Origin: Allokutzneria sp. NRRL B-24872
Lineage (GTDB): Bacteria > Actinomycetota > Actinomycetes > Mycobacteriales > Pseudonocardiaceae
NCBI RefSeq assembly: GCF_002155965.1
Contig: NZ_MUMH01000110.1
Coordinates: forward strand, 1-42,595
Length of the DNA: 42,595 bases
Reading direction: 5' to 3'
The position numbers and the translations under genes are program-made. Below the pieces are notes generated by a model. The model was given only the letters and a program-made list of their open reading frames with translations. It was not told the DNA's origin and searched no databases. Below, piece after piece: positions 12,048-30,494 of the stretch. The stretch's first letter is position 1; each line of letters starts with the position of its first letter.

Positions 12048-14090
12048 TCATGCCCGCAGAGCCATAGTCGGTGCCTTAGAAGAGCCCTTGTGCCCAGCTC
12101 GCAGTGGTGTTGCCTGGCTACCTAGCCGACTCAAAATCCGTCCAGTGTGCGTTCGAGTCGCACCGGGGGCACGTACTGCATCCACACAAGAAGCGCCTGC
12201 TCTCTGAGCAGGCGCTTTTTGATGTGTGGTCATGGTTTGGGTGATCCTTTCCGCGGTGCGAGCGATCTGGGGTAGATCGTCGGCGGGCAAGCGGATGGTG
12301 ATGGTGACGTGGTGGCCGTCGTCAGTTAGGTGGACGGTCAATTGGGTGGCCTCGAACAATGCGCGAAGGAGCGGCTCAGGCGCGCTGGCGAGGTTGAGCG
12401 CCAAGTACGGGAGGCTGTCGAGCAGTGCAATGTCGGCCGTGCTGGGGAGCGCAGGATCGGGTTCGCCTGCTGTGTTGAGTTGGGCGATTGTCGCGAGGGC
12501 GGTGATCTTCTCGGCTTCCAGGTCGTTGTAGTTGCCGCGCAGAGCCTTGGTGAACGGGTCGTCGGGGTCTCCATCTTGGGCTTGGCGGAGGAGTGAGTTC
12601 TGCCGTCGTGTCGTGTCCGCGACGATCCGTTGCAGCCGTTCCCGATCGGCTTGTCGCTGGAGGGCAGCACGGTCGTCGACCCCAGCGAGATCTGCGGCGA
12701 GGTTCTCGTGCCGTTGGTGCCCGAACACGCGGTCCGCAAAGAACCGTGTGAACGCATCCAGTAGGGCGTCTTCGCGGATGTAGGTGGCCTTGGGGTGGCC
12801 TTGGTACTTGTCGGGGCATCCCCGGTTGTTGTTGCGGGGGTTGCACATGTAGTAGGCGCGTTCGTGCCGGAGGTTGCCGAACATCCGGCGCCCGCAGCAG
12901 CAGAAGACCATGCCGCGCAGCACGTACGTGCGAAGTGCCTGACGGTGCACATTGCGCTCGTTGTCGGCACGCGAACCGCGGCGAGCCTGGCTACGAGCGT
13001 TGAGTCCGTCGTACATCCATTTCGGAATCAGTGGCTGGTGGACCGGTTTGGGCGACCACACCCACTTGATGGGGTCGTTGACCTTGCCGCGCTTCGAACG
13101 CGACGCGCGCCGGTTGAACACTTGATACCCCGTGTACTTCGGATTGCGCAGGATCTCGTAGACGCTGGTCTTGCCCCACGCCTTGCGTGCTCGCTTGCCG
13201 CCGGGCGGCTCGGGCGGCGGATACCGCGTTGGATCGGCGTTGAGCCGTTCGGCGATGGTGTCGTAGCCGATCCCTTCGTGGTAGCGCCAGTTCGCGATCT
13301 GCGTGACCGTCTCCCCGTATAGGCCGTCCGGTTCCAACCGGGACTTGGTCAGCCCCTTCGCTGCCTTGGTCGGGTTGGGGTGCCGGAACTTCTTGGCTTT
13401 GTAGCCGTAGGGCGGTTTTCCGATGTTCCAGCCCTCACGGACGTGCGTGCACAGTCCGCCCCACGACTGTTCGAGGGTGTTGAGGACCTCGTACTCGGCG
13501 ATCGATTGGTTGATCCGCCGTTGCAGCACGCGTTGCGCTCGACTGCCAGTCAGCGTGATGGGTTCGTTGGAGGCGAACAGTGGCACGTCGGCCTGTTCCA
13601 GCTCCCGTTCAATTGAGAGATTCTCGAAGGCTCGGCGCGCAACACGCGCGACAGATTCGCAGATCACCACGTCGAATCGCCGCCCGGGTTGCTTGGCTTC
13701 GGCCAGCAGGTCCGCAACTCCTCCATCACGGGGGATCGGGATGTCAAACCGCTCGTAGTTCTCGCCCCTACCGCGTTGGTTGAGCTCCATGCGACCGGAT
13801 TCGACGTCGTAGAAGTGGGCGACGATCACCCACGCCTCGGGTATCGCGGTCCTGCAGTTACCGACCTGTCGCAGGATCGACTGCCGCGGATCTTGCTGGT
13901 CCTCGGTCGAGGTCCGCCCAAGAACCGCGACACGGACCTCATCGCGCATGAGCGCCGCGGTCGATGCACCCAGCGGCGACACCGCATAGTCGGAGAGGCC
14001 GGAGGGGCCTGACACGGGGACGTTGCCTGCCCCGAGTCGTTCGATTGCTGGCGGGGGCGGATTGACCACCAGGTCGTCGTCGGTGCTCAT
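12048..14090 (-). CDS. Large serine recombinase (site-specific integrase)
   Basis: A 680-residue recombinase that would integrate or excise the element. The N-terminal resolvase domain starts near residue 50 (RVAVLGRTSTEDQQ); S61 in the RTS motif is the likely nucleophile. The central Recombinase domain follows from about residue 225 (GKPPYGYKAKKF, ILRNPKYTGYQVFNR). A zinc ribbon lies near residue 395 (MVFCCCGRRMF, then YYMCNPRNNNRGC), then a coiled-coil-like region (DRERLQRIVADTTRRQNSLL). The start ATG has GGAAGG upstream. The last 45 or so residues (APGATRTHTGRILSR and beyond) are the reverse reading of the terminator and tRNA fragment, so the native stop was probably lost or the gene naturally ends across the attachment site. 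Confidence 0.9.
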   Translation of the reverse strand: MSTDDDLVVNPPPPAIERLGAGNVPVSGPSGLSDYAVSPLGASTAALMRDEVRVAVLGRTSTEDQQDPRQSILRQVGNCRTAIPEAWVIVAHFYDVESGRMELNQRGRGENYERFDIPIPRDGGVADLLAEAKQPGRRFDVVICESVARVARRAFENLSIERELEQADVPLFASNEPITLTGSRAQRVLQRRINQSIAEYEVLNTLEQSWGGLCTHVREGWNIGKPPYGYKAKKFRHPNPTKAAKGLTKSRLEPDGLYGETVTQIANWRYHEGIGYDTIAERLNADPTRYPPPEPPGGKRARKAWGKTSVYEILRNPKYTGYQVFNRRASRSKRGKVNDPIKWVWSPKPVHQPLIPKWMYDGLNARSQARRGSRADNERNVHRQALRTYVLRGMVFCCCGRRMFGNLRHERAYYMCNPRNNNRGCPDKYQGHPKATYIREDALLDAFTRFFADRVFGHQRHENLAADLAGVDDRAALQRQADRERLQRIVADTTRRQNSLLRQAQDGDPDDPFTKALRGNYNDLEAEKITALATIAQLNTAGEPDPALPSTADIALLDSLPYLALNLASAPEPLLRALFEATQLTVHLTDDGHHVTITIRLPADDLPQIARTAERITQTMTTHQKAPAQRAGASCVDAVRAPGATRTHTGRILSRLGSQATPLRAGHKGSSKAPTMALRA
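12116..12171 (+). tRNA. 3' half of a tRNA gene (anticodon CAA), probable attachment-site remnant
   Basis: From 12128 the sequence matches the 3' half of a tRNA: anticodon loop CTCAAAA (12130-12136), 3' anticodon stem TCCGT, a short variable region CCAGT, T-arm GTGCG-TTCGAGT-CGCAC (12147-12163), acceptor strand CGGGGGC (12164-12170) and discriminator A. The matching 5' half (it should begin GCCCCCG and carry an ACGGA stem) is absent. Instead a palindrome GGCTACCTAGCC (12116-12127) abuts the fragment. CAA would read Leu, but the variable region is short, unlike classical tRNA-Leu. It is not a functional tRNA here; such 3' fragments mark the far attachment site of elements integrated in tRNA genes. 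Confidence 0.6.
12182..12229 (+). terminator. Strong rho-independent terminator downstream of the tRNA fragment
   Basis: AAGCGCCTGCTC (12191-12202), loop TCT, GAGCAGGCGCTT (12206-12217) and a T run form a perfect 12-bp stem. An outer pair CCACACA (12182-12188) / TGTGTGG (12223-12229) extends it. It is positioned as a tRNA terminator on the plus strand but lies inside the C-terminal coding region of the minus-strand recombinase. Confidence 0.75.
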
Positions 14091-14639: not shown

Positions 14640-14786
14640 CGCCTGTTGTGCGTTGGTGTGCCGCAGGATGCCTTCATGTCGTGCGGCAGTATTCGTTGTG
14701 GGCTTGGCGGACTTCCGGAAAGCCTTCAGGTACTCCACGCCCCACCGGGGGCGTTGAGTAGAAACGAGCTCGCGGAAGGCGTCGTA

Positions 14787-15062
14787 GTGGAGCTTCGGTG
14801 GCGGCTGAGGCAGGTGATGGCGTCTCGTGACGTCTGGACCGGCAAGGAGTTGCGCGACTTGCTTGCTACCCGCGCGGCCTACGCGCTGTCTGCACCATCG
14901 ATCTCGGCGCTGATGAACCAGCCGCCGGTGCAGATGAAGACCGAGACGCTCCAGGCGTTGTGCACCGCGCTGAGGTGCACACCAAACGAGCTGTACGGCG
15001 TGACGTCAGCTCTGGAGGTGTCACTCGCCGAAGAGCCGGGAACGGAAGATCCGCCGAGCTGA
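14787..15062 (+). CDS. Small XRE/Cro-type HTH regulator
   Basis: A 91-residue regulator made almost entirely of one HTH domain: ELRWRLRQVMASRDVWTGKELRDLL, then SAPSISALMNQPPVQMKTETLQALCTALRCTPNELYGV. The arrangement matches the HTH_26/Cro-like family often found beside integrases. I chose the GTG at 14787 (GGAAGG six bases upstream) over the longer frame from 14646, whose extra N-terminus is not HTH-like. It is divergent from the recombinase arm with inverted repeats between, so it is likely to control integration genes (inference). Confidence 0.7.
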   Translation: MELRWRLRQVMASRDVWTGKELRDLLATRAAYALSAPSISALMNQPPVQMKTETLQALCTALRCTPNELYGVTSALEVSLAEEPGTEDPPS

Positions 15063-15118: not shown

Positions 15119-15877
15119 TCAGCAAGCCATCGGCTCGGTGCCAGGGTGCAGCCTCTCCTGGACTTGACGATGCCACGCCAGCGCGAAGGTGATGCAGTTG
15201 GACTCGCTGCGATGGCTAGGTGTGCAGCCAGGTACGTGTCGGCCGCGTTTGCTCCATGCCATGGAGTCGGAACTCGCGAGGGCGTCGGCGTAGCGCGCGA
15301 GGCCGCTGATCTTGACGCCGAATCCGTGGAGTCGCAGACCGCGCGCTGCGAGGGTTCCCATGATCTGTTGTACCTCGGCTGTGTGCTGGCGGCGGCACAC
15401 AGATCCCACGCCGACGAGCGGTTCAGCGTCGAGATTGATCCCCGCGCGTTCGTATAAGTCGGCGCACCGTTCGTAATCCGGGGGCGTGAAGCCCTGTAGG
15501 ACCGGCACCCAGGGAAGCTCGGGGGCGAGGTCGCGGAGGCGGAGGAGGTTCTGCACAGTCCGCCGTTGGTGTTCGTGGACGGTGAGCCCGGTGCGCTTGA
15601 GGATGTGCGGCTCGCACATCCAGTCCTGGGGTGCGCACCATGCGAGGTTCCCGATTTCGGTGGTGTAGCGGCGGACCGCGTGCACGTAGCTAGGCGCGGG
15701 GGTGTGCCAGCCGCCGTGCAACTGCAATTCGCTGAAGCCGCCTGAGTCCAGTGCCCAGGTGGTCACTGCTCGCGGGAGAGTGCGGCGGCCGGCAAGTCGT
15801 CGGTGCGAGAGCAGGAGGGGGATGTCGGGAATGCGGGTCAGCCACGTGGGTTGGTGGATGCCGAGGTACATCTTCAC
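15119..15877 (-). CDS. TGT/DpdA-like protein (queuine tRNA-ribosyltransferase-like)
   Basis: A 252-residue protein resembling the actinobacterial and phage group annotated as queuine tRNA-ribosyltransferase-like or DpdA-family, which swaps guanine for a 7-deazaguanine in tRNA (TGT) or DNA (DpdA). Visible signatures: MYLGIHQPTWL at the N-terminus, LSHRRLAGRRTLP, ALDSGGFSEL (residues 42-51, likely active-site loop), APQDWMCEP (82-90), and late-barrel segments PWVPVLQGFTPPDY, GVGSVCRR and RLHGFGVK. This is compatible with a TIM barrel. It is shorter than canonical TGT and lacks its C-terminal zinc site. GTG 15877 is chosen because it overlaps the upstream stop (GTGA). No preQ0 synthesis gene is in the window, so any deazaguanine would come from the host. 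Whether the target is DNA or something else is unknown. Confidence 0.68.
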   Translation of the reverse strand: MKMYLGIHQPTWLTRIPDIPLLLSHRRLAGRRTLPRAVTTWALDSGGFSELQLHGGWHTPAPSYVHAVRRYTTEIGNLAWCAPQDWMCEPHILKRTGLTVHEHQRRTVQNLLRLRDLAPELPWVPVLQGFTPPDYERCADLYERAGINLDAEPLVGVGSVCRRQHTAEVQQIMGTLAARGLRLHGFGVKISGLARYADALASSDSMAWSKRGRHVPGCTPSHRSESNCITFALAWHRQVQERLHPGTEPMAC

Positions 15878-16041
15878 GTCGGCACCACCTTGTGGTGGGT
15901 GCGGTCGCGGCATAGCTGCCGCTCGCCGCGAGCTGCACGCCGTGGGGGAGGCGGCTGCGGAGATCGGCGGTTGCCCACAGGGTTGTCCACAGATCCCCTT
16001 GGGGCTGTGGAACAGCCGCGATGAACGCAGCGCGTGGTCAT
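15874..16041 (-). CDS. 55-residue basic, Cys-containing protein bridging the methyltransferase and DpdA-like genes
   Basis: A short frame starting at ATG 16041, which overlaps the stop of the methyltransferase-like gene (ATGA), and ending in a TGA that overlaps the GTG start of the DpdA-like gene. Such double overlap strongly suggests it is translated. It begins MTTRCVHRGC (two cysteines), has one further cysteine near the end (LCRDRTHH) and is rich in arginine and proline. It could be a small zinc- or nucleic-acid-binding partner of its neighbours; no family is recognised. Confidence 0.55.
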   Translation of the reverse strand: MTTRCVHRGCSTAPRGSVDNPVGNRRSPQPPPPRRAARGERQLCRDRTHHKVVPT

Positions 16042-16979
16042 GCCGCCCGCCGCGCTCGTGGGCGGTTGCTGCTCGTGGCGGCTACAACCTGCGTGGCTCG
16101 GTACGGCTCGGCAGCGCTGGCTGCCGAGGCGTGTTCGATGTCGTGCGCGGACTGAAAGACGAGCACGTCGTAGTGCGCGGTGAGCGCTCGCGGTACACCG
16201 CGCGCGGCGGCGCGGCGTTCGCCGAAGGAGACACGCGGGACGAGACGACCGCCGCGCAGCTCCGCAGTGAGCGCGATGCACCGCTCCACCAGAACCAAGC
16301 CCGCGGCCTGGCCGGCGGCGGCGACCGGCGAGGTGAGGTCGGCGAGTGAACCGTCCGCGTGTCGGCGGGGCCGCATGACGACGGCGAGATGCCCGCCGGT
16401 GCGCAGCAGTGGGGCGGAGTAGGCGAGGGTCGCCGCGAGGTTGCTGAGGCTGACCTCGATCGCCCCGGCGCGTCCACTTCCCGATCCCGCAACGCGATCT
16501 CGGCACCGTTTGGGTGCGGTGCGCAGGGAGGTGAGGACGAGTCCGACTCGGCCGATTGCACCGGCGGCGCGAACGGTCGCGAGCACGGCAGGCTCGGCCT
16601 CGACAACCGATCCGTCGGCTGGGTGGCCTGCGATCTTCGTGGCGTTGAGGGACGCGCGGGCGAGCGTCCACAGCCTCCGGCAGGTGGTCAGCCCAAATGC
16701 TTGACGGCCGGAGCGAACGGCCTCCACCACGACTGTGCCGGCTCCGCAGTCGGGGTCCAGGACGAGGTCGCCGAGGCGCGTGTAGGTCGTGATCGCGTGG
16801 GCAGCGACAGCGGGTGGGATGCGGTCGTCGTCGCGGTCGCTGCCGGCAACAAAGCCTCCGCGCCGCAGCTGCGCACTCGGGCTGAGCTGACCGGTCGCCC
16901 ACACTGAGAGCGGCGTCGTCAGATGCTCCTCGACTGCCCGCAGGGTGCGCGGACGGCGTGCGGTGTGGCGTTCAGTCAT
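16038..16979 (-). CDS. SAM-dependent methyltransferase-like protein (DNA/TRM11-type, catalytic motif altered)
   Basis: A 313-residue Rossmann-type protein. Motif I is present (DLVLDPDCGAGTVVVEA, about residues 71-87), in the style of N4/N6-amino DNA methylases and TRM11-like enzymes where the product of motif I is DPxCGxGT. The segment where [DNS]PP[YFW] should stand reads LVLTSLRTAP (about 147-156), so the usual catalytic motif is missing. It may bind SAM or DNA without methylating, or use another chemistry. The start ATG 16979 has GGAGACC upstream and overlaps the previous gene by eight bases. It forms one operon with the gene upstream and the 55-residue and DpdA-like genes downstream. Confidence 0.6.
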   Translation of the reverse strand: MTERHTARRPRTLRAVEEHLTTPLSVWATGQLSPSAQLRRGGFVAGSDRDDDRIPPAVAAHAITTYTRLGDLVLDPDCGAGTVVVEAVRSGRQAFGLTTCRRLWTLARASLNATKIAGHPADGSVVEAEPAVLATVRAAGAIGRVGLVLTSLRTAPKRCRDRVAGSGSGRAGAIEVSLSNLAATLAYSAPLLRTGGHLAVVMRPRRHADGSLADLTSPVAAAGQAAGLVLVERCIALTAELRGGRLVPRVSFGERRAAARGVPRALTAHYDVLVFQSAHDIEHASAASAAEPYRATQVVAATSSNRPRARRAA

Positions 16980-17913
16980 CGGAGGTCTCCCGGGCGCAAG
17001 CGGTGGTGCCCGGCGCCGGTCGGCGGGTGAACAGCAGGAGGTCGTCGTGCACGACGACGGAACGACCGAGCGCCGACGAGCACTCGGAGGAGGCTGCGAT
17101 GGACGCGAGCGCGACGCTGCGGGCAGGTACGCGCAGCAGTGCGATGCGATCGAGGAAGCGCAGTCCGGCGCGACGTGCGGCGGGCACGAGCGTTGCGGAG
17201 GAATCGGAAAGCGATCCCCGCGAATAATCACCGTGTGTGATGACCGCGAGGACGCCAGAGCGGGTGAGAAGCCGTACCCAGTGCGCCGGTCGGAGCGCGT
17301 CAGTTGCTGTCGGCTCGACCGTGATGATGATCAGGTCGTAGCGGTCCGGACTGCGTCCCGTCGCGGCCCCCGCGCTAGCTCCAAGTCCGGTCGATGGCGC
17401 GGCGTCTGAGTGGTCCGGACTCGGACTCGCCGAGCGCGGGGTGAGTCCGAGTCCGGACAGCGCCCCGCTCGACTCTTCCGTGCGATGGTCTGTCGGCGTG
17501 CCTTCAGCCCAGAGTCGGACATGCCGGCAGAGTCGGAGAACAGTCCGCGCTGTGCTGTGCAGGTCCTCGTATCGATGGCCGCGTCGGTGGCTGACGGCAG
17601 TCACCGACGAGTCGGGCGAAGCGCTTCCTGCGCCGAGCGCGACGAGCAGAACGTGCTGACAGGGCTGGCTGTAGCACGACACGATCTTCGACACGGCGGT
17701 CGTCAACCACGCCGAGGGATGCTGCGGCGCTTCCTGCTCACCCGCTTGGGCGCACAGCCACACGGTGGACAGCGGCCCGTGCGACTGGCGCCGGCCGCCC
17801 GTTCGACGAGTCCCTGTTCGCTCACTGTCCGACGCCACTCGCGGGAGAGCGGCGCGCCGCACTCCGCGCTCGCGAGTGACTTCACTTCGGAAGCCTTGAT
17901 CAGAAGTTGCCAT
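16972..17913 (-). CDS. Second methyltransferase-like protein of the modification arm
   Basis: A 313-residue protein, first gene of the minus-strand arm. It has a hydrophobic strand with a glycine-rich turn (HVLLVALGAG, about residues 87-96) and later RYDLIIITVEP (about 191-201), placed like motifs I and IV of amino methyltransferases but not matching them fully, followed by LTRSGVLAVITHGD. This suggests a degenerate Rossmann methyltransferase paired with its neighbour. The low-complexity central part (GLTPRSASPSPDHSD) is encoded by a perfect 16-bp inverted repeat. Overlap with the next gene (ATGA type) supports co-translation. Function is uncertain. Confidence 0.5.
   Translation of the reverse strand: MATSDQGFRSEVTRERGVRRAALPRVASDSERTGTRRTGGRRQSHGPLSTVWLCAQAGEQEAPQHPSAWLTTAVSKIVSCYSQPCQHVLLVALGAGSASPDSSVTAVSHRRGHRYEDLHSTARTVLRLCRHVRLWAEGTPTDHRTEESSGALSGLGLTPRSASPSPDHSDAAPSTGLGASAGAATGRSPDRYDLIIITVEPTATDALRPAHWVRLLTRSGVLAVITHGDYSRGSLSDSSATLVPAARRAGLRFLDRIALLRVPARSVALASIAASSECSSALGRSVVVHDDLLLFTRRPAPGTTACARETSDD
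17413..17458. repeat. Perfect 16-bp inverted repeat, 14-base loop
   Basis: GTCCGGACTCGGACTC (17413-17428) and GAGTCCGAGTCCGGAC (17443-17458). The arms themselves contain repeated GGACTC units. The structure lies inside the second methyltransferase-like gene, in a low-complexity linker, and would form a very stable hairpin in DNA or RNA. Its role is unknown; an oriT-like cruciform, attenuator or inserted repeat are possibilities. Confidence 0.6.
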
Positions 17914-18440
17914 CGAAGTTCTCCTCCGTCGCGGCTGAACGTTGCATCCCTAAACTCCGATTTTCGAGCTGGTTTTGGACGCCCCGCCGAAAAAAATGTG
18001 GTGGCGTTGGCCAAGAGCGCATGCTGCGGCGTGGCAGGAGCCGACCTGTGGTGACTTCAGACGGCGTTGTCTCGTCGGCGTTACGCGTGCCCACTGGCCC
18101 CTGTCGTGTGCGCCCTGGAAGTGAACTCCAAGATTTTTGCAGTCACTCACGTGACCTTCATCCGCTCAGAGTGCTGCGCTGGCAACGTGAGTGCTAGAGA
18201 CGCATCCAGTAGTGGCGCATCTGTGCAGCTCAGCTGCTACTAGTGGTACGCCCCCGGGTGTGGCGCCCCGCTCGTCGAGACGATCTTGAAATGTATCAAG
18301 AATGAGAGAAAATAGTAGCCAGCTAGTAGCTTCTAGGGGTCCATATAGTTGGCCGCTAGTAGCTACGTGGTATTTCCGTGGTACGGGTTGTGGCGTCCTG
18401 ATGTCGATGGTTTTCGCATCGACTTCGCTGGAGCTATGAC
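17914..18440. promoter_or_regulatory. Divergent intergenic region with TAGTAGC repeats
   Basis: A 527-base region between the modification arm (minus) and the secretion operon (plus). No gene is supported. TAGTAGC occurs at 18313-18319, 18324-18330 and 18357-18363, with an inverted copy GCTACTA at 18236-18242 and a related CAGTAGTGG near 18207. The repeats are 50-200 bases before the first secretion gene. They could be operators of a switch controlling conjugation, or part of an origin of transfer. Confidence 0.5.
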
Positions 18441-19403
18441 ATGGAAGTCCGATCTGGTTTTCCTCGTGCTGGTACTACGGCTACTCCGAACGCGTTGGAT
18501 ATCGCACGGGATACGTTCGCCTGGCTGGTGACGGGGCCGCATCCGGTATCGCTGAATGGAAGACTCTTCCCGGGGTTGCCTCCTCGGCGCATTCCAGTTG
18601 ATGAGGTTCGTGATCGATTGCTGAGCCGCGGATGTCCGCAGGCGACGCGGGATGCGGTGTGGGCGCATCTGGTGGCGCGCTCGCGCATGGAGGGCGCGAC
18701 GTGGACGGTCGTCGCGGTCGGGGTGGCAGCGCCCGCGCTGGTGTCGGCCGCGGCCCGCTTGTCCCACCGGTTCGCCGGCGACGCGGCCGATGTGCACGCC
18801 GAAGTCGTGCGCGGCTTCCTTGATGCGCTCGCGACCATCGACCTCCGGCGGCCTCGGATCATGAGCCGGTTGAGATGGGCGGCGTACCGGTCCGGCTACG
18901 CCGCGCTCGCCGATGCGCTGGCGAGTCCGACTCCGGTCGCTCCGGGCTTTCGCTCGACTCCGCCGCACGCCCCGTGGGGGCATCCGGATCTGGTTCTTGC
19001 CCGTGCCGTCGCGGATGACGTCCTTACCCGCGAGGAGGCAGCGCTGATCGGTGCGACCCGGCTGGAGGACGTGCCCGTCGCCGACTGGGCCGCGCAACAC
19101 GAGCTCGGTGAGTGGGCGGTCTACAAGATGCGCCGGCGAGCCGAGGTGAGGCTTGTCGCCTACCTGCGCGACGTCGCCGTGGAGTCCGATCCCACCGACC
19201 CCTTGCTCGACCAGGTCGCCGCTGCGGTAGCGCTTGCCCGCCCGCGCACGTCACCCAGAAAGTCACCTTCCGTGACGGTTCTCCGAGCGGGAGCGGCGAA
19301 GAAAAAGGGCGAAGACGTGTCCAAAACGGGCGCGATTTCCGGAGTTCAGGAGTGCGGGACACACCCGCGTTCATCTGGTCCTTCGGAGGGGTCCTCATGC
19401 TGA
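18441..19403 (+). CDS. Sigma-region-4-like/HTH protein, first gene of the secretion operon
   Basis: A 320-residue protein of no certain family. The middle is helical (ATRDAVWAHLVARSRMEG, ADVHAEVVRGFLDALATID). Around residues 185-250 there is a segment like RNA-polymerase sigma region 4 (LTREEAALIGATRLEDVPVADWAAQHELGEWAVYKMRRRAEVRLVAYL), with the acidic HTH entry and basic recognition helix. It could be a transcription factor for the transfer genes. The ATG has GGAG at seven bases. The last six bases overlap the pilin gene start. Confidence 0.5.
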   Translation: MEVRSGFPRAGTTATPNALDIARDTFAWLVTGPHPVSLNGRLFPGLPPRRIPVDEVRDRLLSRGCPQATRDAVWAHLVARSRMEGATWTVVAVGVAAPALVSAAARLSHRFAGDAADVHAEVVRGFLDALATIDLRRPRIMSRLRWAAYRSGYAALADALASPTPVAPGFRSTPPHAPWGHPDLVLARAVADDVLTREEAALIGATRLEDVPVADWAAQHELGEWAVYKMRRRAEVRLVAYLRDVAVESDPTDPLLDQVAAAVALARPRTSPRKSPSVTVLRAGAAKKKGEDVSKTGAISGVQECGTHPRSSGPSEGSSC

Positions 19404-19882
19404 CGATCCGTCGATCCTCCACAGCAACGCGCAACCGGCATCGCGCCGTGCCGAACACGCGGTCATCGAGCTGGCGCCGTCGATCCGTTGCCGGCGACTT
19501 TTCCATTGATCCGATGAATGCTGCCCGAGAGCGGTTCCTCGCCCCGTCGAGGTATCGGCTGAACGCGCTGTTGATCGTCGGGCTTGCGGCGGGTGTGCTG
19601 CTGGTGTCGGAACCGGTCGCTCACGCCGGCACGACGGTCCTGGCACTGGCGGCGTCGGTGAGCGATGTCCTGAACAACTTGCGCAACTGGCTCATGGGTC
19701 TTCTCGCTGGCCTTGCGACGGTGTTCCTGACGATCGGTGGCGTCCGGTACGTGATGGGCGGTGGCGATCCCGGCGAGGTCGAGAAGGCCAAGACCGCGTT
19801 CAAGAGCGCCGGGTGGGGTTACGGCCTGGCGACGCTCGCGCCGCTGATCGTGGAAATCCTCAAAGGGATCGTGGGGGCCTGA
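19397..19882 (+). CDS. TrbC/VirB2-like pilin subunit
   Basis: A 161-residue protein with a basic N-terminal leader, a hydrophobic signal (LNALLIVGLAAGVLLVSEPVAHAG, with an AHA-type cleavage site) and two transmembrane helices (LMGLLAGLATVFLTIGGVRYVMGG and WGYGLATLAPLIVEILKGI) separated by a charged loop (DPGEVEKAKTAFKSA). This is the standard TrbC/VirB2 pilin topology. GGAGGGG lies upstream of the ATG. It is small, precedes a polytopic TrbL-like gene by one base, and overlaps the upstream gene. It would form the extracellular or envelope-spanning conduit of the type IV system. Confidence 0.75.
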   Translation: MLTIRRSSTATRNRHRAVPNTRSSSWRRRSVAGDFSIDPMNAARERFLAPSRYRLNALLIVGLAAGVLLVSEPVAHAGTTVLALAASVSDVLNNLRNWLMGLLAGLATVFLTIGGVRYVMGGGDPGEVEKAKTAFKSAGWGYGLATLAPLIVEILKGIVGA

Positions 19883-19883
19883 C

Positions 19884-21815
19884 ATGGCCACGCCGATCCC
19901 ACTCCACCAGTCCGCGGGCCCGGTCGCGGGAACTGCCTGTCGAGCAATGGTGTCGCCAGGCGTCACCGTCGGTGCCTGGCCATCACGTGGATGGCGCTGG
20001 CGCGCGTGCGCGCTGGCGCTGAGCATCCTGGTGCTGCTGGTAGGGCTTGTTGTCGGCGCGACCGCGCAGCCGAGCACGCCGCGGCCCGATCCGTGTTCCG
20101 GGCCTGAACCCCGACCCGTGCCATGCGCTCCCGCCCCGAGCCGACCAACCCCACCGACACCCACGACGCCAGCACGGCCGACGACGACACCACGGACGCC
20201 ATGCACCGGTGAGGACTGCATCCCGCAGCCCAAGCCGACGACGCCGCCAGCGCGGCCAACCCAACCAGGAACCGGGAACTCCAGCGGATCGGCGTGCGGC
20301 ATCACCGATATCGGCGCGTGCATCACCGAGGCGGTCAACGACTTCTTCCGCGGCATCGTCGACGCAGCACTCACTCCGATCCTGGAGGCCATCGGCCACA
20401 CCACGCTCTCCACACCGACGATCGACAACATCGCCGGCATCGGGGACCTGTGGAACACCTCGTGGGAGATCGTGGTCGCCGCCTACGGGGTCCTCATCCT
20501 CGTCGGCGGCATCGTCGTGATGAGCCACGAAAGCCTCCAGGCCCGCTACTCGATCAAGGAGATCGGGCCGCGTATCCCCGCCGCGTTCATCGCCTCGGCG
20601 CTGTCGCTGTTCTTCGTCGACAAGTTCATTCGCGTGGCCAACGGCGTGACCCTGGGGTTGCTCGGCAGCGGTGTGAACGCGCCATCGCTGGGCAGCACCC
20701 TCAAGACCGCGATCGGGGGTGTGCTCTCCGGCGGACTCTTCATCATTCTCGTCGGCCTCGTCCTGGTCGTCGTCTCGCTGGCACTGCTGATCGTCTACGC
20801 GTTCCGGGTCGTCACCACGTTGGTCCTGATCGTCGCCGCCCCGCTGTTCCTGATGGGCCATGCGCTTCCGCAGACCGATCCGCTGGCCCGGTGGTGGTGG
20901 AAGGCGATCACCGCGACGCTGGCGATTCAGGTCGTCCAAGCGCTGGTGTTGATGACAGCGGTGAGGACGTTCCTCGGCAGCGGCGCGCACTGGTTCAACG
21001 GCACGACCAGCGCGCTGGGATTGCTGGTGTCATCGATCGCGCTGTTCGTGATCCTGTTCAAGGTTCCCTTCTGGCTACTGCGCGCGGTCCGGGTGAGCTC
21101 TGGACGTTCTCTGGTCGCTGGCCTGGCCCGCGCTTTCGTCGCCGCGAAGGCATTCGGCATGGTCGCGGGACGCGCTGGCGCGCTCAGCACGGCGGGTTCC
21201 TCTCGGGGCGCCCGCGCAGCGACCAGCCGGCACGGCGGCCGTCCCTCTGGCGGTGGAGAGCCTGCAGACCCGCCGTGGCCTGCTGTGCCGCGCTTCGCGC
21301 CGTCCCCGGAGGTGCTTGCGCAGCGACTCAAGACTGCTCATGACGCCGACCGCGTTCGCGCGGCGCGACGGTCGCGGTTGCCGTCGCAGGAACCGCGATT
21401 CCTCCAGCCGCAACCGCAAGCGAGCACGCATGACCCGGCGTCCACACTGGCAACCCCGGGGCGGGTTGTACCGGACTTCAGTTCCCCACCGAGTCCCGCC
21501 ACACCCACGCGGGCACAACGCCCGGGCTCGCTTCCACGCTTTCAGCCCCCCGCAAGCGCTGGGCGAGGCGCTGACGCGGCGCCCTCGATGCGGTCGGTCC
21601 GTGTCGCGTCGGTACCGGCGCTCATGCAGTTCCGCCCCGCCACAGCACCGACGCCGCCCTCGGCATCGCCACCGGCGACGTCCGCGCCCACCGCGCCGAC
21701 GTTCCGTCCATCTCATCCCGAGCCCCGCTTGGGCGATGCCTACCGGCGCACCCAGTCCGTTCCGCCGCCGGTGTTTCGCGCACAGGAAGCCGATTCAGGA
21801 GGTGAAGGGACATGA
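19884..21815 (+). CDS. TrbL/VirB6-like polytopic conjugation membrane protein
   Basis: A 643-residue protein. It has an N-terminal signal/membrane segment (ACALALSILVLLVGLVVGATA) and a Pro/Thr-rich spacer with cysteines (PCTGEDC). Six or so transmembrane helices lie between about residues 140 and 420 (WEIVVAAYGVLILVGGIVVM, IPAAFIASALSLFFVDKF, GLFIILVGLVLVVVSLALLIVYAF, TLVLIVAAPLFLMGHALP, LAIQVVQALVLMTAV, LLVSSIALFVILFKVPFWLL). A 220-residue proline-rich, basic C-terminal tail follows. The helical core, with the conserved APLFLMGHALPQT segment and W-rich WWWKAI, fits Gram-positive VirB6/TrbL channel proteins. It overlaps the PrgI-like gene by four bases. Confidence 0.75.
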   Translation: MATPIPLHQSAGPVAGTACRAMVSPGVTVGAWPSRGWRWRACALALSILVLLVGLVVGATAQPSTPRPDPCSGPEPRPVPCAPAPSRPTPPTPTTPARPTTTPRTPCTGEDCIPQPKPTTPPARPTQPGTGNSSGSACGITDIGACITEAVNDFFRGIVDAALTPILEAIGHTTLSTPTIDNIAGIGDLWNTSWEIVVAAYGVLILVGGIVVMSHESLQARYSIKEIGPRIPAAFIASALSLFFVDKFIRVANGVTLGLLGSGVNAPSLGSTLKTAIGGVLSGGLFIILVGLVLVVVSLALLIVYAFRVVTTLVLIVAAPLFLMGHALPQTDPLARWWWKAITATLAIQVVQALVLMTAVRTFLGSGAHWFNGTTSALGLLVSSIALFVILFKVPFWLLRAVRVSSGRSLVAGLARAFVAAKAFGMVAGRAGALSTAGSSRGARAATSRHGGRPSGGGEPADPPWPAVPRFAPSPEVLAQRLKTAHDADRVRAARRSRLPSQEPRFLQPQPQASTHDPASTLATPGRVVPDFSSPPSPATPTRAQRPGSLPRFQPPASAGRGADAAPSMRSVRVASVPALMQFRPATAPTPPSASPPATSAPTAPTFRPSHPEPRLGDAYRRTQSVPPPVFRAQEADSGGEGT

Positions 21816-23023
21816 GCCAATCCGTTCGGATTCCGGCGGATGTCGACCGTGAAGACCGCGTGATCGGTCCGCTCACCGCCCGCCAATTGCTGATCTTGGC
21901 TGTCACCGCTGTGGTGCTGTACGGGGCGTACAACCTCACCGGCACCGTCGTCCCTCTGCCGGTGTTCCTCGTCATCGCTGTTCCGATCGGGGTGACCGCC
22001 GCGGTCCTCGCGCTCGGTCAGCGCGACGGTGTCAGCCTGGATCGGCTCGCCCTTGCGGCACTGCGCCAGCGCATGAGTCCCCAGCACCGCGTCGCCGCAC
22101 CGGAGGGCATCCGGCCCGTGCCCGAGTGGCTGGGCAGCCGGGTCGCCAGAACCAGCGGCACGGGCCGCTCCACAAGGAAGGGCAGCGCGGGCGCTGCCGC
22201 GTCGGTGGTCTCACCGGCCGCTCTACGTCTGCCCGCCGAAGCGGTCACCGACACCGGTGTGATCGACCTCGGCAAGGACGGTGTCGCCGTGGTCGCGGTC
22301 TGCTCGACGATCAACTTCAGTCTGCGCACTCCGGCCGAGCAGGAGTCGCTCGTCGCCACCTTCGGCCGGTATCTGCACTCGTTGACCGCGCCGGTGCAGG
22401 TGCTGGTGCGCGCGGAGCGGCTGGACCTCTCCGGTCAGATTGCCGAGCTGCGCGAGCAGGCTGGCGGTCTGCCGCACCCGGCGCTGGAGCGGGCGGCGCG
22501 CGAGCACGCCGAGTACCTGGACCAGCTCGGCCGCGCCACCGACTTGCTGCGCCGCCAGGTCCTGCTGATCCTGCGCGAACCGATGCTCACCACGGGGCCG
22601 ACCGACGGGCTCGGCGGTGCCTCGCCGCTGGCGGCGTTGACGGCGAAACGCCGGACCGCCAAGCAGGCTGCCTCGGTCGACGACGCCACCCGCAGGGCTG
22701 CCGAAGCCCGGCTGGCCCGCCGGCTCGGCGAGGCCGTGGAACTGCTGTCGCCGTCGGGAATTGTGGTCACCCCGCTGGACGCCGGGCAGGCCACCGCGGT
22801 GCTCGCCGCGGCGTGCAACCCCGACATCGTGATCCCGCCGAACTCCGGTCTCGCCGCCTCGAACGAGGTGATCACCACCGCCCCGGAAGAAGGCTGGGAC
22901 GCAAGCGCGTTCGGCCGCGCCGCGTTCCCCGCCGACGACGAGTTCGGCGAGGCCGAGGACGCCTGGGATGACGACGCCGAGGACCCCGATGACTACGCCG
23001 ATGCTGCTGGGAGGTACCGCTGA
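21812..23023 (+). CDS. PrgI-family/VirB3-like protein with cytosolic extension
   Basis: A 403-residue protein. The N-terminus (SVRIPADVDREDRVIGPLTARQLLILAVTAVVLYGAYN, then VFLVIAVPIGVTAAVLALG) is the two-helix PrgI/VirB3 signature of Gram-positive type IV systems. The long remainder has an SCO6880-like soluble part (GVIDLGKDGVAVVAVCSTINFSLRTPAEQESLVATFGRYLHSL, LVRAERLDL) followed by a helical region and an acidic tail (DDEFGEAEDAWDDDAEDPDD). In these systems it couples the membrane complex to the VirB4 ATPase encoded next, whose start overlaps its stop by one base. Confidence 0.75.
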   Translation: MSQSVRIPADVDREDRVIGPLTARQLLILAVTAVVLYGAYNLTGTVVPLPVFLVIAVPIGVTAAVLALGQRDGVSLDRLALAALRQRMSPQHRVAAPEGIRPVPEWLGSRVARTSGTGRSTRKGSAGAAASVVSPAALRLPAEAVTDTGVIDLGKDGVAVVAVCSTINFSLRTPAEQESLVATFGRYLHSLTAPVQVLVRAERLDLSGQIAELREQAGGLPHPALERAAREHAEYLDQLGRATDLLRRQVLLILREPMLTTGPTDGLGGASPLAALTAKRRTAKQAASVDDATRRAAEARLARRLGEAVELLSPSGIVVTPLDAGQATAVLAAACNPDIVIPPNSGLAASNEVITTAPEEGWDASAFGRAAFPADDEFGEAEDAWDDDAEDPDDYADAAGRYR

Positions 23024-24930
23024 TGAACGGCAAAACCACGCGCTGCGGCCAGAAGGCGCAGGCCCCGCAATCCCCACCCACCAGCGCGAGCGCGTTCACC
23101 CCGGATGCCATTTCCGTCCGCCCCCGCGCGCTGGAAGTTGGCGGCGAATGGGTCGCGTCCTTCGCCGTCGTCGGCTACCCCCGCGAAGTCCACCCAGGTT
23201 GGCTTCAGCCGCTGCTGACCTATCCCGGCAGGGTCGACGTCTCGCTGCACATCGAGCCGATCGACCCGGTCACCGCGGCCAACAGGCTGAAGAAACAGCT
23301 ATCGAAACTGGAGTCCGGCCGCCGGCACACCAGCGAGAAAGGACGGCTGATCGACCCGCACGTCGAAGCCGCCACCGAGGACGCCTACGACCTGTCCGCA
23401 CGGGTCGCTCGTGGCGAAGGCAAGTTGTATCGGATGGGCCTGTACCTGACGGTGCACGCATCAACCGAAGATGGCCTCGGCGACGAGGTCGCGGCCATCC
23501 GGGCGCTGGCGGCGTCGCTGCTGCTGGACTGCAAGCCGACCACGTACCGCAGCCTGCAGGGCTGGATCACCAGCCTGCCCATGGGGCTCGACCTGGTCGG
23601 CATGAGGAGGACATTCGACACCAGCGCGTTGAGCGCGTCGTTCCCGTTCACCTCACCGGACTTGCCGCCACCGGACCCGACTTCGGTTGGTGCCCCGAGC
23701 GGCGTGCTCTACGGATTCAACGTCGGAAGCCAGGGCCTCGTGCACCATGATCGGTTCGCGCTGGACAACCACAACTCGGTGATTCTCGGACGTTCCGGCT
23801 CGGGGAAGAGCTATTTGGTGAAGTTGGAGCTGCTGCGGTCGTTGTACCGAGGGATCGAGATCCACGTCATCGACCCCGAGGACGAGTACGCGCGGCTCGC
23901 CGCCGCGGTCGGTGGTACCTACGTGCATCTCGGCGCCGAGCGGGTCCGCTTCAACCCCCTCGACTTGCCGATCTACACCCGTCCGGACGGGCGCCGCACC
24001 GCACCGCGCGACGCGCTGATCCGTCGGTCGCTTTTCCTGCACACCGTGATCTCGGTGCTGCTGGGAAGTGAACTCGAAGCGGCCGAACGCGCGGCACTGG
24101 ACCGGGCGATCGCCGCGACCTACCAGCGCGCCGGCATCACCTCCGATCCCCGGACTTGGACCCGCCCAGCACCGCTGTTGGCCGACCTCGCCGAGGTACT
24201 CGCAGGCAGCGTTGAGCCCGCCGGGATCGAACTCGCGGCCCGTCTGCACCCCTACGTCGCCGGCGCGTTCTCCGGCCTGTTTTCCGGCCCGACCTCGACC
24301 CGCCCGGAAGGGCACCTGGTGGTGTTCTCGCTGCGGGATCTCGCCGACGAGATCAAGCCGATCGGCACGCTGTTGAACCTCGACGCGGTCTGGCGGCAGG
24401 TCTCCAACCCGGCCATCCGCAAGCGCCGATTGGTCGTGGTCGATGAGGCGTGGCTGTTGATGAAGGAACCTGCGGGCGCGGAGTTCCTGTTCCGGATGGC
24501 CAAGGCGAGCCGGAAGCACTGGGCGGGACTCACGGTCGCCACCCAGGACACCGCAGACGTCCTCGGCTCGGACCTCGGCCAGGCCGTCGTGGCCAACGCA
24601 GCCACCCAGGTGCTGCTCAGACAAGCCTCCCAAGCGATCGACGAGATCACCCGCACCTTCGACTTGTCCCTGGGGGAGAGGCAGTTCCTGCTCTCCGCCG
24701 ACCGTGGTCAGGGGCTGTTGTCGACCGGGCGGCAGCGGGTGGCGTTCCAGTCCATCGCCTCCCCGGTCGAGCACGAGCTGGTGACATCCAACCCCGCAGA
24801 AATCGCCGGCTACGCCGGCACCGCGCAAGGCACCACGACCTCCTACGTCGAACTCGGCGCGGATGACACCGCAATCGCAGACTCACTCGACGACGGTGAC
24901 ACCTCGCAAATCGAACTCGACGCTGCCTGA
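23023..24930 (+). CDS. VirB4/TraC-like conjugation ATPase
   Basis: A 635-residue ATPase energising assembly of the secretion channel. It has an N-terminal VirB4 domain (WVASFAVVGYPREVHPGWLQPLL, SLHIEPIDPVTAANRLKKQL), then Walker A GRSGSGKS at residues 256-263 followed by YLVKLELLRSLYRGIEIHVIDPEDEYARL, and Walker B VVVDEAWLLM near 471-480. The motif AKASRKHWAGLTVATQDTADVL is typical of VirB4. Length is slightly short of Gram-negative VirB4 but normal for actinobacteria. It overlaps the PrgI-like gene, in the usual order for Gram-positive type IV secretion loci. Confidence 0.9.
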   Translation: MNGKTTRCGQKAQAPQSPPTSASAFTPDAISVRPRALEVGGEWVASFAVVGYPREVHPGWLQPLLTYPGRVDVSLHIEPIDPVTAANRLKKQLSKLESGRRHTSEKGRLIDPHVEAATEDAYDLSARVARGEGKLYRMGLYLTVHASTEDGLGDEVAAIRALAASLLLDCKPTTYRSLQGWITSLPMGLDLVGMRRTFDTSALSASFPFTSPDLPPPDPTSVGAPSGVLYGFNVGSQGLVHHDRFALDNHNSVILGRSGSGKSYLVKLELLRSLYRGIEIHVIDPEDEYARLAAAVGGTYVHLGAERVRFNPLDLPIYTRPDGRRTAPRDALIRRSLFLHTVISVLLGSELEAAERAALDRAIAATYQRAGITSDPRTWTRPAPLLADLAEVLAGSVEPAGIELAARLHPYVAGAFSGLFSGPTSTRPEGHLVVFSLRDLADEIKPIGTLLNLDAVWRQVSNPAIRKRRLVVVDEAWLLMKEPAGAEFLFRMAKASRKHWAGLTVATQDTADVLGSDLGQAVVANAATQVLLRQASQAIDEITRTFDLSLGERQFLLSADRGQGLLSTGRQRVAFQSIASPVEHELVTSNPAEIAGYAGTAQGTTTSYVELGADDTAIADSLDDGDTSQIELDAA

Positions 24931-24987
24931 GCGACCCCAATCGCAAGCGTTCATCCGTTCATTTCGAATCGCAACAAGGGGATACCC

Positions 24988-25830
24988 ATGTCTACGTCAC
25001 TGCCCATTTCCGCCACCGGCCGCCGGCCGGCTCGGCTGCTGACGCAGAACAGTGAAATGCGCCGGATCGGCGTGTGGAATTGGTCGTTGCCCGCCTGGGC
25101 TGGCCGCCTAGCCGATGGCCGCACCTATAACACGTGTCCCAGCGCCGGGATCTGTGCACAAGCGTGCTACGCCCGGCGCGGCACCTACACCTGGCCGGTG
25201 GTCCGTGCCAAGCACGAAGCGAACCTCGTGTACGTCCTCGACGACCTGGCCGGCTGGCAGGCCGCGATGGTCGCTGAACTCGGCGCGCGCAAGTTCCGCG
25301 GCGCCTGGGTGAGAATCCATGACAGTGGTGATTTCTTCAGCAGTTCCTATCTTCAGGCATGGCTGGATATCTGCCGGGCTCGGCCCGATGCGAACTTCTA
25401 CGCCTATACCAAAGAGGTCGCCCGCTTTCGCGCGCTTGTTGAACCCGACCCTCCGCCAAATTTCTTGTGGGTCTATTCCTACGGTGGAATACAAGACGCT
25501 GCGCTGGATTCCGCCACTGATCGAGTCGCGGATGTGTTCCCCGATGAGGACGCGATCGCCGAGGCGGGCTGGGCCTCGCAGGAAGCCAGCGACCTGCTCG
25601 CGGTGCTCGGTCCACGGTTGGTCGGCGTGCCAGCCAACCGCATTCCCGCCCTTCTCAAACGGTTGGCGGGCCGCCGGTTCTCCTCCTGGCAAGCCGAGGT
25701 CGATGCCGAACGCGCCGTCCGCCGAGGCCGCCGACACCTGCAGCTCGTCGACAACACCCGCCCCGATCACAGCCAGCAGCTCGCGGGCAAGGCCAGCCCG
25801 GCGCATGCCGACCAGCCGCGCGCTGCGTGA
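24988..25830 (+). CDS. GP88-family protein (phage-type, unknown function) within the secretion operon
   Basis: A 280-residue protein resembling the actinophage GP88 domain family. It begins LLTQNSEMRRIGVWNWSLPA and has a cysteine cluster TCPSAGICAQACYAR (C50, C56, C60, spacing CX5CX3C), then WVRIHDSGDFFSSSYLQAWLDIC and FYAYTKEV. The three cysteines could hold a metal or iron-sulfur cluster, and HDSGDF could be an active-site loop. The arrangement is distantly reminiscent of phage radical-SAM-like proteins but lacks CX3CX2C. Its place between virB4 and virD4 is unexpected and suggests it acts on the transferred DNA or entering cell (inference). GGGG lies in the leader upstream of the ATG. Confidence 0.65.
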   Translation: MSTSLPISATGRRPARLLTQNSEMRRIGVWNWSLPAWAGRLADGRTYNTCPSAGICAQACYARRGTYTWPVVRAKHEANLVYVLDDLAGWQAAMVAELGARKFRGAWVRIHDSGDFFSSSYLQAWLDICRARPDANFYAYTKEVARFRALVEPDPPPNFLWVYSYGGIQDAALDSATDRVADVFPDEDAIAEAGWASQEASDLLAVLGPRLVGVPANRIPALLKRLAGRRFSSWQAEVDAERAVRRGRRHLQLVDNTRPDHSQQLAGKASPAHADQPRAA

Positions 25831-25878
25831 CCGCAGCTCGCGCCCGTCCGGTCGACCGCCGTCGTGGGGAGGTTCCCG

Positions 25879-28404: not shown

Positions 28405-28496
28405 TGAGCGTCCTCGCGGCTTGCTCCAGCAGCATATCCACTCGGCAAGCAGAGGTTCTCCGCTCAGCGAGCCTCGCACGATTGGAAGGAACGACC

Positions 28497-29546
28497 GTGA
28501 TTACAAACCCCACACGACAATGGCAACTGCGCGGAAGCATGCCGCAGCGGCCCACACCCCGCGCCGCGACCACCGGTGCGCATCACGCCCAGCTCGCCAG
28601 ACGTCTCACGCGACGAGACCGGTGGCTCGCTCGAATGTTGTTCGAGCACAAGATCTTCACCACCCAGCAGATCGTGGAACTCTGCTACCCCACCATGCGC
28701 GCGGCCAATCACCGCCTCCTGGACCTCTACCGGTGGCGCGTGGTCGACCGCTTCCGACCGTTCGTCAGCCGCGGAACCGCTCCCATGCACTACGTGCTCG
28801 ACATCGCAGGCGCCGTGGCCCTGGCACAGGAAGACGGCCTCGACCCGAAGAGCCTCGACTACCGACACGAGCAAGCGATGGGGATGGCACACTCTCTCCG
28901 CCTCGCGCACACCGTCGGTACCAACGGAATTCTCACCTCGCTCGTCGCACGCAGCCAGCGGCCAGACGCGCGCGGACGACTGACCGCATGGTGGTCCGAG
29001 CTGCGCTGCGCGAGGCTGTTCGGCGACATGGTCCGCCCCGACGCCTACGGCCGATGGCGCGACGACGACGGCGACCACGTCGTCGAGTTCTTCGTCGAGT
29101 TCGACTTCGGCACAGAAGACCTCGGAAAGCTCAGCCGCAAGCTAATCGGCTACCACAAGCTTTCTGCCGCAACAGGAATCACAACACCAGTACTGGTGTG
29201 GCTCCCCACCACACGCCGCGAGACCAGCGCTCGCGCCGCGCTCGCGACCATGCTGTCCCACCTGGACCATCCCGCCCTCGTGCCCGTCGCGACGAGCGCA
29301 GCGGACCTCGTGGACAAGGACATCCAGCACGATCCCGCTGGCCCCCGCTGGCTGCCCATCTCCTGCGAACAGGCGCTCCCACCGCAGAGGTTGACCCTCG
29401 GCGAACTCGCTCGGCTCTGGCCCTACCTCACCCCGCCTGTACCTGGGCAGAGTGCGCTCGCAGGAACTGCTCAACCGACAGCAGCTCTGCTGGCCGCTCC
29501 CGACCCGCTGCCGCCAGCTCGGCCGCGAGATGTCTTCCGGCGGTGA
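28497..29546 (+). CDS. Replication-relaxation (Replic_Relax) family protein
   Basis: A 349-residue protein. The N-terminal winged-helix-like region (RDRWLARMLFEHKIFTTQQIVELCYPTMRAANHRLLDLYRWRVVDRFRP) and the central part (FFVEFDFGTEDLGKLSRKLIGYHKL, VLVWLPTTRRETSARAAL) match the Replic_Relax family associated with Gram-positive conjugative elements, which takes part in origin relaxation and plasmid mobilisation. The D/E pattern in EFFVEFDFGTEDLGKL, near a lysine, is nuclease-like. It may stand in for a relaxase, since no MobF or MobP relaxase is visible. The GTG at 28497 has GGAAGGA upstream; the longer open frame overlaps the VirD4 gene and is not supported. Confidence 0.72.
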   Translation: MITNPTRQWQLRGSMPQRPTPRAATTGAHHAQLARRLTRRDRWLARMLFEHKIFTTQQIVELCYPTMRAANHRLLDLYRWRVVDRFRPFVSRGTAPMHYVLDIAGAVALAQEDGLDPKSLDYRHEQAMGMAHSLRLAHTVGTNGILTSLVARSQRPDARGRLTAWWSELRCARLFGDMVRPDAYGRWRDDDGDHVVEFFVEFDFGTEDLGKLSRKLIGYHKLSAATGITTPVLVWLPTTRRETSARAALATMLSHLDHPALVPVATSAADLVDKDIQHDPAGPRWLPISCEQALPPQRLTLGELARLWPYLTPPVPGQSALAGTAQPTAALLAAPDPLPPARPRDVFRR

Positions 29547-29549
29547 TCG

Positions 29550-30494
29550 ATGAAGCTCGGGCTCGCCGCACTCGCGGTCATCATCACCATCACGTTCGTC
29601 ATCGGCGGCATCGGCAATGCCGTGATGAACGTGTTGCTCGGCAGCGGTTCCTCCGAACCGAGCCACGAAGCGCTCGCCGAGATCCCTGCCGACTACTTGA
29701 GCCTCTACCGGGCAGCGGCCTCAGCGTGCCCAGGACTGGACTGGACCGTCCTCGCGGCGATCGGCGATGCCGAATCCAAACACGGCCGCGGCTCCGGCGT
29801 CGGCATCACCAGCGGCGAAAACGCCGCCGGCGCCGCTGGCCCCATGCAGTTTCTCAAAGCCACCTTCGGCAATGTCGTTGCACAGCACAGGATTCCACCC
29901 GGCGGCAGCACCCCCGCCTCACGCTACAACGCGCACGATGCGATCTACGCCGCGGCGTTCTACCTCTGCGACTCCGGCGCACCAAAGGACATCCGCAAAG
30001 CTCTCTTCGCCTACAACCACTCAAACCAGTACGTCGAATCCGTTCTCGCGCAAGCGAAACGCTACCAAAGCAGCACCACCGGAACCGGCGACTGCAACCA
30101 GATCCAGGCCGCCAGCCCGGCCGCCATCGCGGCGATCAGATTCGCCTGCGCCCAGCTCGGCCTGCCCTACGTCTGGGGCGGCAACGGCCCCGCCGCCGGC
30201 CATCGAGGCTTCGACTGCTCCGGCCTCACCAAAGCGGCCTACGCAGCCGCTGGCGTTCACCTTCCCCGCACCGCGCAGACGCAGTACAACGCAGGACCGC
30301 TCGTGCCAGAGGGACATCCTCTGCTGCCTGGCGATCTGATCTTCTACGGCACGCGCGGCAACGTCCATCATGTCGGCCTGTATTTGGGAGCCAGCAAGAT
30401 GGTGCACGCTCCGACCTTCGGTCAACCGGTCCAGATCCGCATTTACCGTTGGAAGGGCGACGACTTCCTCACCGCCAGCCGTCCTTCGAACTAG
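29550..30494 (+). CDS. Bifunctional cell-wall hydrolase: SLT transglycosylase plus NlpC/P60 peptidase
   Basis: The VirB1-like enzyme that opens peptidoglycan for the conjugation machine. Residues 1-30 are a signal anchor (LAALAVIITITFVIGGIGNAVMNVLL). Then comes a lytic transglycosylase domain with catalytic E75 (LAAIGDAESKHGRG, AGAAGPMQFLKATF, ALFAYNHSNQYVESVL). The C-terminal NlpC/P60 domain starts near 205 (GLPYVWGGNG, FDCSGLTKAAYAAAGVHLPRTAQTQY), with catalytic C223 and histidines 272-273 (NVHHVGLYLG). It starts three bases after the previous stop. This is the last gene of the secretion operon. Confidence 0.9.
   Translation: MKLGLAALAVIITITFVIGGIGNAVMNVLLGSGSSEPSHEALAEIPADYLSLYRAAASACPGLDWTVLAAIGDAESKHGRGSGVGITSGENAAGAAGPMQFLKATFGNVVAQHRIPPGGSTPASRYNAHDAIYAAAFYLCDSGAPKDIRKALFAYNHSNQYVESVLAQAKRYQSSTTGTGDCNQIQAASPAAIAAIRFACAQLGLPYVWGGNGPAAGHRGFDCSGLTKAAYAAAGVHLPRTAQTQYNAGPLVPEGHPLLPGDLIFYGTRGNVHHVGLYLGASKMVHAPTFGQPVQIRIYRWKGDDFLTASRPSN

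Follow-up and report, generated by a model that had tools for sequence, protein, structure and literature searches.

The locus considered here raises the question whether a short run of overlapping genes beside conjugation genes serves to mark the DNA of a mobile element and, if so, which of its products could still do this. The stretch analyzed (the window) comprises 42,595 nucleotides (nt) of contig NZ_MUMH01000110.1 of the soil actinomycete Allokutzneria sp. NRRL B-24872, of which positions 15119-17913 are occupied by four tandem minus-strand open reading frames (ORFs), A-B-C-D, here called the arm. The same four-gene run had been recognized in an initial annotation made from the sequence alone, which regarded it as two methyltransferase-like proteins, a 55-residue protein, and a DpdA-like or tRNA-guanine transglycosylase (TGT)-like enzyme that plausibly mark the DNA of the element so that it survives restriction in the recipient. 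DpdA-type DNA modification is already known from phages and dpd islands.

This paper describes the arm, its relatives, and its surroundings. The data suggest, at about even odds in our judgment, that the window carries, in reduced form, a DNA-modification (anti-restriction) arm of an actinobacterial family of integrative elements of the type IV secretion system (T4SS) type. At the level of the family, a modification arm in which a transporter-fed DpdA stands beside conjugation genes appears well supported, because a C5 methyltransferase, a B protein with the catalytic motif TSPPY (TSPPY-type B), a VUT-family transporter directly before DpdA, and T4SS genes are linked. Marking of element DNA against restriction, as initially proposed, is thus a sound expectation for the family; for the window copy it is doubtful, because catalytic motifs are lost, the transporter is missing, and a preQ0 pathway was not found in the host.

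The arm encodes a DpdA-family protein

The product of D is a strong member of the DpdA family, in line with the resemblance noted initially. Profile searches matched it to PF23859 (E 7.2e-86; 288.2 bits against a cut-off of 27 bits) and to phrog_1279 (E 1.1e-88), no TGT family was matched in the Pfam scan, and a search of PDB sequences with the D profile returned 0 matches. Residues D56, D97, and D216 (numbered in the 264-residue reading from 15913) are invariant in 19/19 aligned DpdA members, and we take them to be the acids of the transglycosylase site, with a catalytic role. D is approximately 52% identical to mycobacteriophage proteins, and its relatives are abundant on mobile DNA (400 phage records and 116 plasmid records). 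The protein would presumably insert 7-deazaguanine into DNA rather than tRNA, and within the window arm it is the only product that looks catalytic.

The start of D is most likely GTG at 15877 rather than ATG at 15913, as judged from the point at which homology sets in and from the start used in relatives. The ATGA/GTGA joints described for the four ORFs were recovered in part: the stop of B and the start of C share ATGA, and C and D share GTGA only with the GTG start of D, whereas A and B overlap by 8 nt rather than 4. A scan of the arm for promoters and terminators yielded 1 promoter-like site and 0 terminators, and PADLOC assigned no defence family to A, C, or D and only generic type II methyltransferase profiles to B.

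Linkage and composition of the arm in relatives

Relatives were studied in 40 loci fetched around B matches, in 20 of the 49 listed DpdA places, and in a named set of DpdA loci made up of the 80 best among 114 relatives. The sets overlap in their genomes, and some of the loci are nearly identical (e.g., L117-L120). A B match was found in 69/298 genomes of the order, a number that includes weak matches to other methyltransferases, and an A match in 18/298. An A-type ORF adjoins B in 37 of the 40 sampled B loci and T4SS markers are present in 35 of them; A and B form the core pair beside T4SS genes in this actinobacterial element family. VUT occurs in 3/40 of the B-selected loci.

DpdA was found in 34/150 family genomes. 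Fourteen of the 20 fetched DpdA places lie on an arm (A and B are both present in 13; L104, truncated close to its edge, has B) and 6 lie elsewhere, and VUT stands beside DpdA in 13/14 arm loci versus 0/6 other loci. The named set, in which 31 of the 80 loci contain A and B, agrees with this pattern, since VUT precedes D by less than 120 nt in 30/31 of these loci versus 11/49 others. VUT itself is present in 21/150 family genomes and, by coordinates, beside DpdA in 18 of these 21.

In Pseudonocardiaceae the order of the arm is often A-B-(C5 methyltransferase, PAPS-reductase-like)-VUT/YhhQ-DpdA. Among the named arms, those with TSPPY-type B (n=15) include a C5 methylase in 14 cases and a PAPS-reductase-like gene in 10, and those with a B that has lost the motif (degenerate B; n=16) include a gene designated X in 14 cases and C5 in 3 (L130, L141, and L172). 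Pfam matches in these relatives comprise C5 DNA methylase (L150), Vut_1 (L127; 43.9 bits against a cut-off of 27.2), and N6_N4_Mtase (an extra gene of L141), as well as Recombinase for gene X of L116. X genes such as that of L116 (8719-9510) have this Recombinase domain and no match to the Resolvase catalytic domain. The PAPS-reductase-like protein of L127 had no Pfam match and was assigned to phrog_424 at 1.8e-45; a PDB sequence search with it gave 1 match (E 0.16). In many arms its gene (L127 8353-9459; L172 8859-10028) has the C5 methylase on one side and VUT/DpdA on the other.

Linkage across genomes, suggested initially as a check, is therefore conserved for A with B and for VUT with DpdA; the combination of four genes is variable, with B and D separated by other genes in relatives. 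The window arm contains no C5, PAPS-reductase-like, or VUT gene. VUT is missing from the arms of the window and L172 (Allokutzneria sp. A3M-2-11), which belong to one genus, and present in 30 arms of other titles; this pattern, noticed post hoc, could reflect another supply route or independent loss. One arm with A, B, X, VUT, and DpdA (L124) was found on a short contig titled Candidatus Melainabacteria, which may be a misbinned actinobacterial contig.

A and B are probably non-catalytic in the window

The profile searches proposed initially supported D, as described above, and narrowly B, which exceeded the N6_N4_Mtase cut-off (28.6 versus 26.7 bits) with a match confined to the motif I part; A and C matched no Pfam or NCBIfam family up to an E of 1. 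A is paralogous to B, with a profile-profile probability of 98.4 and an E of 8.6e-15 over the C-terminal part. The Rossmann fold was borne out by structure prediction confidently for B (pLDDT 79.7, pTM 0.79; Trm11 among the best PDB matches, E 1.3e-9) and less so for A (pLDDT 68.2; best E 3.7e-6, TM only 0.33).

The catalytic (D/N/S)PPY motif was not found in window B. As had been read initially, LVLTSLRT in B and LIIITVEP in A stand at the place of the TSPPY of relatives. TSPPY is kept in 48/66 B sequences and absent from 18/66, the window included, and in the alignment the degenerate sequences also lack the loop after the TSPPY position. Moreover, an acid after the second strand is present in 48/48 TSPPY-type B sequences versus missing in 17/18 degenerate ones (L044 is ambiguous in the pattern used). 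Among 70 A rows (65 distinct; that of L063 is a doubtful ORF pick) no PPY-type motif was found, and two motif-I-like strings occur in the N-terminal part. A and B of the window are probably non-catalytic, and loss of catalysis appears likelier than the non-standard modification initially suggested, because the catalytic motif is gone from both proteins and the loop that follows it is gone from B.

A tree of B from which both motif regions had been removed has a single branch that splits TSPPY-type from degenerate sequences (SH-aLRT 100). This tree contains 66 of 71 sequences, 5 exact duplicates having been dropped and L130 excluded beforehand as its frame was read through; it includes long branches (e.g., L079, L141, and L172) and is read as unrooted. 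The median ratio of nonsynonymous to synonymous substitution rates (dN/dS) was 0.30 for degenerate B (28 pairs) versus 0.38 for TSPPY-type B (45 pairs), and it was 0.23 for D and 0.49 for A of the same branch as degenerate B; these Nei-Gojobori values are inflated by G+C bias, and no pair that includes the window was used. The ratios show purifying selection on the degenerate-B branch, as represented by its members other than the window.

C as a probable deletion scar

The 55-residue protein does not hold up well as a gene product: C is probably not a gene, because its profile had no match outside the window in 144 further loci (145 sources in all), the G+C content of its codon positions is flat (0.70/0.68/0.70), and parts of it match genes that are missing here. 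With considerable confidence, C can be read as the scar of a deletion of gene X and VUT, and the set A-B-C-D most likely arose by deletion. Three matches, collinear with relatives, bear on this. One covers 22 nt over the B/X junction and reaches no farther into C than its first 12 nt (MTTR); it is weak, as other genes at the B junction (e.g., in L127) also begin with MTTR. Another joins an inner stretch of 21-22 nt to X, with an offset (137-138) that agrees in 7/7 relatives tested, and in each relative 0/60 shuffles were as good. The last lies before D: in the D frame the window has PHPPQGGADVK, and the VUT end of L042 has PRPPEGGAGVK; the VUT stop overlaps the D start in relatives, and the C stop does likewise in the window.

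Arms with TSPPY-type B also contain the inner stretch, within the 5' part of B or close to it, so that it could be more than a relic, namely a conserved DNA site. In the window (15971-15992), in X of L116-L139, and in the 5' part of B of L127 and L134, thus in varied gene contexts, CTGTGGACAACCCTGTGGGCAA contains the word TGTGGACAA, which presumably resembles the actinobacterial DnaA box.

Proposed function and alternative explanations

In the full arm, VUT may import a 7-deazaguanine precursor such as preQ0, which DpdA would exchange for guanine in DNA, and additional marks would come from TSPPY-type B, the C5 enzyme, and in some cases an N4/N6 enzyme. The element DNA would then already be marked on entering the recipient and could be protected during transfer. 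The window lacks genes for the C5 enzyme, the PAPS-reductase-like protein, and VUT; X would be reduced to the scar C, A and B would form a pseudo-methyltransferase pair that probably only binds, and DpdA would work only if the cell obtained a precursor in some way that was not found here. A more far-reaching proposal, which we consider rather unlikely, is that conjugative elements pre-mark their DNA with salvaged 7-deazaguanine (from VUT to DpdA) and use the non-catalytic pair as DNA-recognition subunit, so that the strand reaches the recipient uncut by restriction enzymes. More generally, a transporter-fed DpdA arm next to transfer genes of conjugative elements in many Pseudonocardiaceae would represent conjugation that uses a phage-like base shield, and the base source of DpdA-only elements would become directly testable. 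The degenerate but selected B branch is a clean case for studying the part that a pseudo-methyltransferase plays in conjugation.

Several observations weigh against a modification arm in the window. DpdA was found in 4/40 B-selected loci (in L054 as a fragment only), and it is therefore an addition to A and B rather than part of the core. VUT scored below the cut-off of TIGR00697 for queuosine precursor transporters (27.8 versus 50.95 bits), because of which the name preQ0 transporter is here a family-level inference. A Pfam scan of 40 window proteins gave no relaxase family, so that of the initially reported divergence from a complete T4SS operon the divergent orientation stands and the completeness was not shown; an origin of transfer (oriT) was not found in the window and was not sought further. 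Phage Orion, with DpdA and without the pathway, shows no DNA modification (PMC6884629). Finally, the host genome (95% complete) had no match to VUT, TGT, QueT, or PTPS (QueD-type). The single match to the QueC profile passes the cut-off (25.1 versus 22 bits) and covers profile residues 5-63 in a 661-codon frame; an equally short match recurs in many of the genomes listed (149 out of 150 were listed), and it was not accepted as QueC. No credible QueC, QueD-type, TGT, VUT, or QueT gene was thus found in the host, and therefore no visible source of substrate for the window DpdA. In four other loci (L200-L203, in G305, G309, G379, and G322) QueC and DpdA share a contig at a distance of approximately 48-53 kb. 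Radical-SAM-like and glycosyltransferase-like genes were seen among the neighbours in two of these genomes and in G132, and QueC was not taken as the source for the arm.

Two alternatives leave D aside as cargo or as idle. A and B might be a DNA-binding regulatory pair that acts on the repeat array between A and o18441 and controls the transfer promoter, with DpdA as separate cargo, an explanation that we consider less likely than the main one. The pair is divergent from the transfer operon and adjoins its first gene, degenerate B is under selection, and TAGTAG-type repeats (4 in the window, at 18236-18364) occur 2-9 times in 18/19 degenerate-B intergenic regions versus at most once in 37/37 TSPPY-type regions (loci L042-L172), with a spacing of partly 11 bp in L121; this count was made post hoc. 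However, TSPPY-type loci carry arrays of other repeats (CCACCAAA, CTGACA/CTGTCA, and CGGTAC), so that arrays are not tied to the loss of catalysis, and a causal link between the TAGTAG array and degenerate B is for this reason not a main claim here. Moreover, o18441 or another protein may bind the arrays, and the shared repeat may only reflect common descent. A similarly tentative view is that the window arm is decaying, with A and B dead and D idle for want of substrate and due to be lost. The absent VUT, C5, and PAPS-reductase-like genes, the lack of preQ0 genes found in the host, and the scar-like C are consistent with decay, but A, B, and D are open frames, the conserved D residues are kept, and purifying selection is seen in the degenerate-B branch (in pairs without the window).

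The initial proposal that four genes work together, with A and B modifying or reading DNA in a new manner alongside the 55-residue protein and D, is now improbable: the tight overlaps and the pairing of A with B in 37/40 loci agree with it, but C is likely a scar unsupported as a gene, other genes separate B and D in relatives, and the catalytic motif and loop are missing. Least probable of all is that D serves translation as a tRNA-guanine transglycosylase. DpdA and TGT have related folds and TGT was found in none of 3 genomes of the genus, but D matched PF23859 and no TGT family, its relatives abound in phages and plasmids, and its neighbours on the arm are DNA methyltransferases and transfer genes.

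Comparison with known systems

DNA of phage Rosebush carries dPreQ0, and some phages encode YhhQ, for which no correlation with any phage group was seen (PMC6884629). Phage DpdA systems, such as those of mycobacteriophages, share the DpdA profile family with the arm and some include YhhQ, whereas here DpdA belongs to a T4SS element beside transfer genes, VUT is its regular partner, and the arm is without preQ0 synthesis genes. The dpd islands (dpdA-K) resemble it in the proposed chemistry, DpdA-based 7-deazaguanine modification of DNA; in contrast, their required dpdB and dpdC are unmatched here (none of the 40 window proteins scanned matched a DndB-like or DUF6884 family), and YhhQ occurs in about 9% of islands (PMC11888242) versus VUT in 30/31 arms with A and B.

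Orphan methyltransferases are enriched in the leading regions of plasmids, in passages that do not mention DpdA or deazaguanine (PMC11541004). Like the arm, they are element-borne and thought to protect transferred DNA; unlike them, window A and B lack the catalytic motif. Compared with Trm11/Trm14 and N6_N4_Mtase methyltransferases, B has the same fold and motif order, but its window version lacks the catalytic motif and loop and has the paralogue A as its partner. Queuine and Pseudonocardia are absent from the text, as far as seen, of a survey of actinobacterial elements (PMC3218068), and among the open-access literature matches listed no description of such an arm was found.

Surroundings of the arm

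The features of the arm and its neighbourhood are collected in Table 1.

Table 1. Features in and around the arm, with positions in the window.
Feature	Position	Strand	Description
Large serine recombinase	12048..14090	-	Resolvase, Recombinase, zinc ribbon
HTH_26 regulator	14646..15062	+	Same place after D as in relatives L116-L125
D	15119..15877	-	DpdA (PF23859); likely GTG start at 15877
C	15874..16041	-	55-codon ORF; probable scar of gene X + VUT deletion; X match 15971-15992, D-proximal match 15861-15889
B	16038..16979	-	N6_N4_Mtase/Trm11-like; motif I DPDCGAGT kept; LVLTSLRT at 16518-16541 replaces TSPPY; active-site loop absent
A	16972..17913	-	Putative pseudo-methyltransferase, paralogue of B; N-terminal third disordered; S-adenosylmethionine (SAM) motif I absent; LIIITVEP at 17311-17334
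Intergenic region, A to transfer operon	17914..18440	.	CTAGTAGC-type repeats
o18441	18441..19403	+	Conserved first transfer-operon gene; no Pfam family
T4SS genes	19112..30494	+	Pilin, TrbL-like, PrgI, VirB4/TraG-type ATPase, GP88, coupling protein, NlpC/P60-SLT

The arm is transcribed divergently from the T4SS genes, of which the TrbL-like protein scored below its cut-off (23.6 versus 27 bits). The GP88 family gene inside the transfer operon (24988-25830) has a relative approximately 3.4 kb before VUT-DpdA on an Embleya plasmid (L112). Elsewhere in the window (9499-10782), an Mrr-type nuclease domain is fused to nSTAND3 (Mrr_cat 3e-11, nSTAND3 9e-47) in a stretch of lower G+C content (about 0.50-0.54) that is probably defence cargo.

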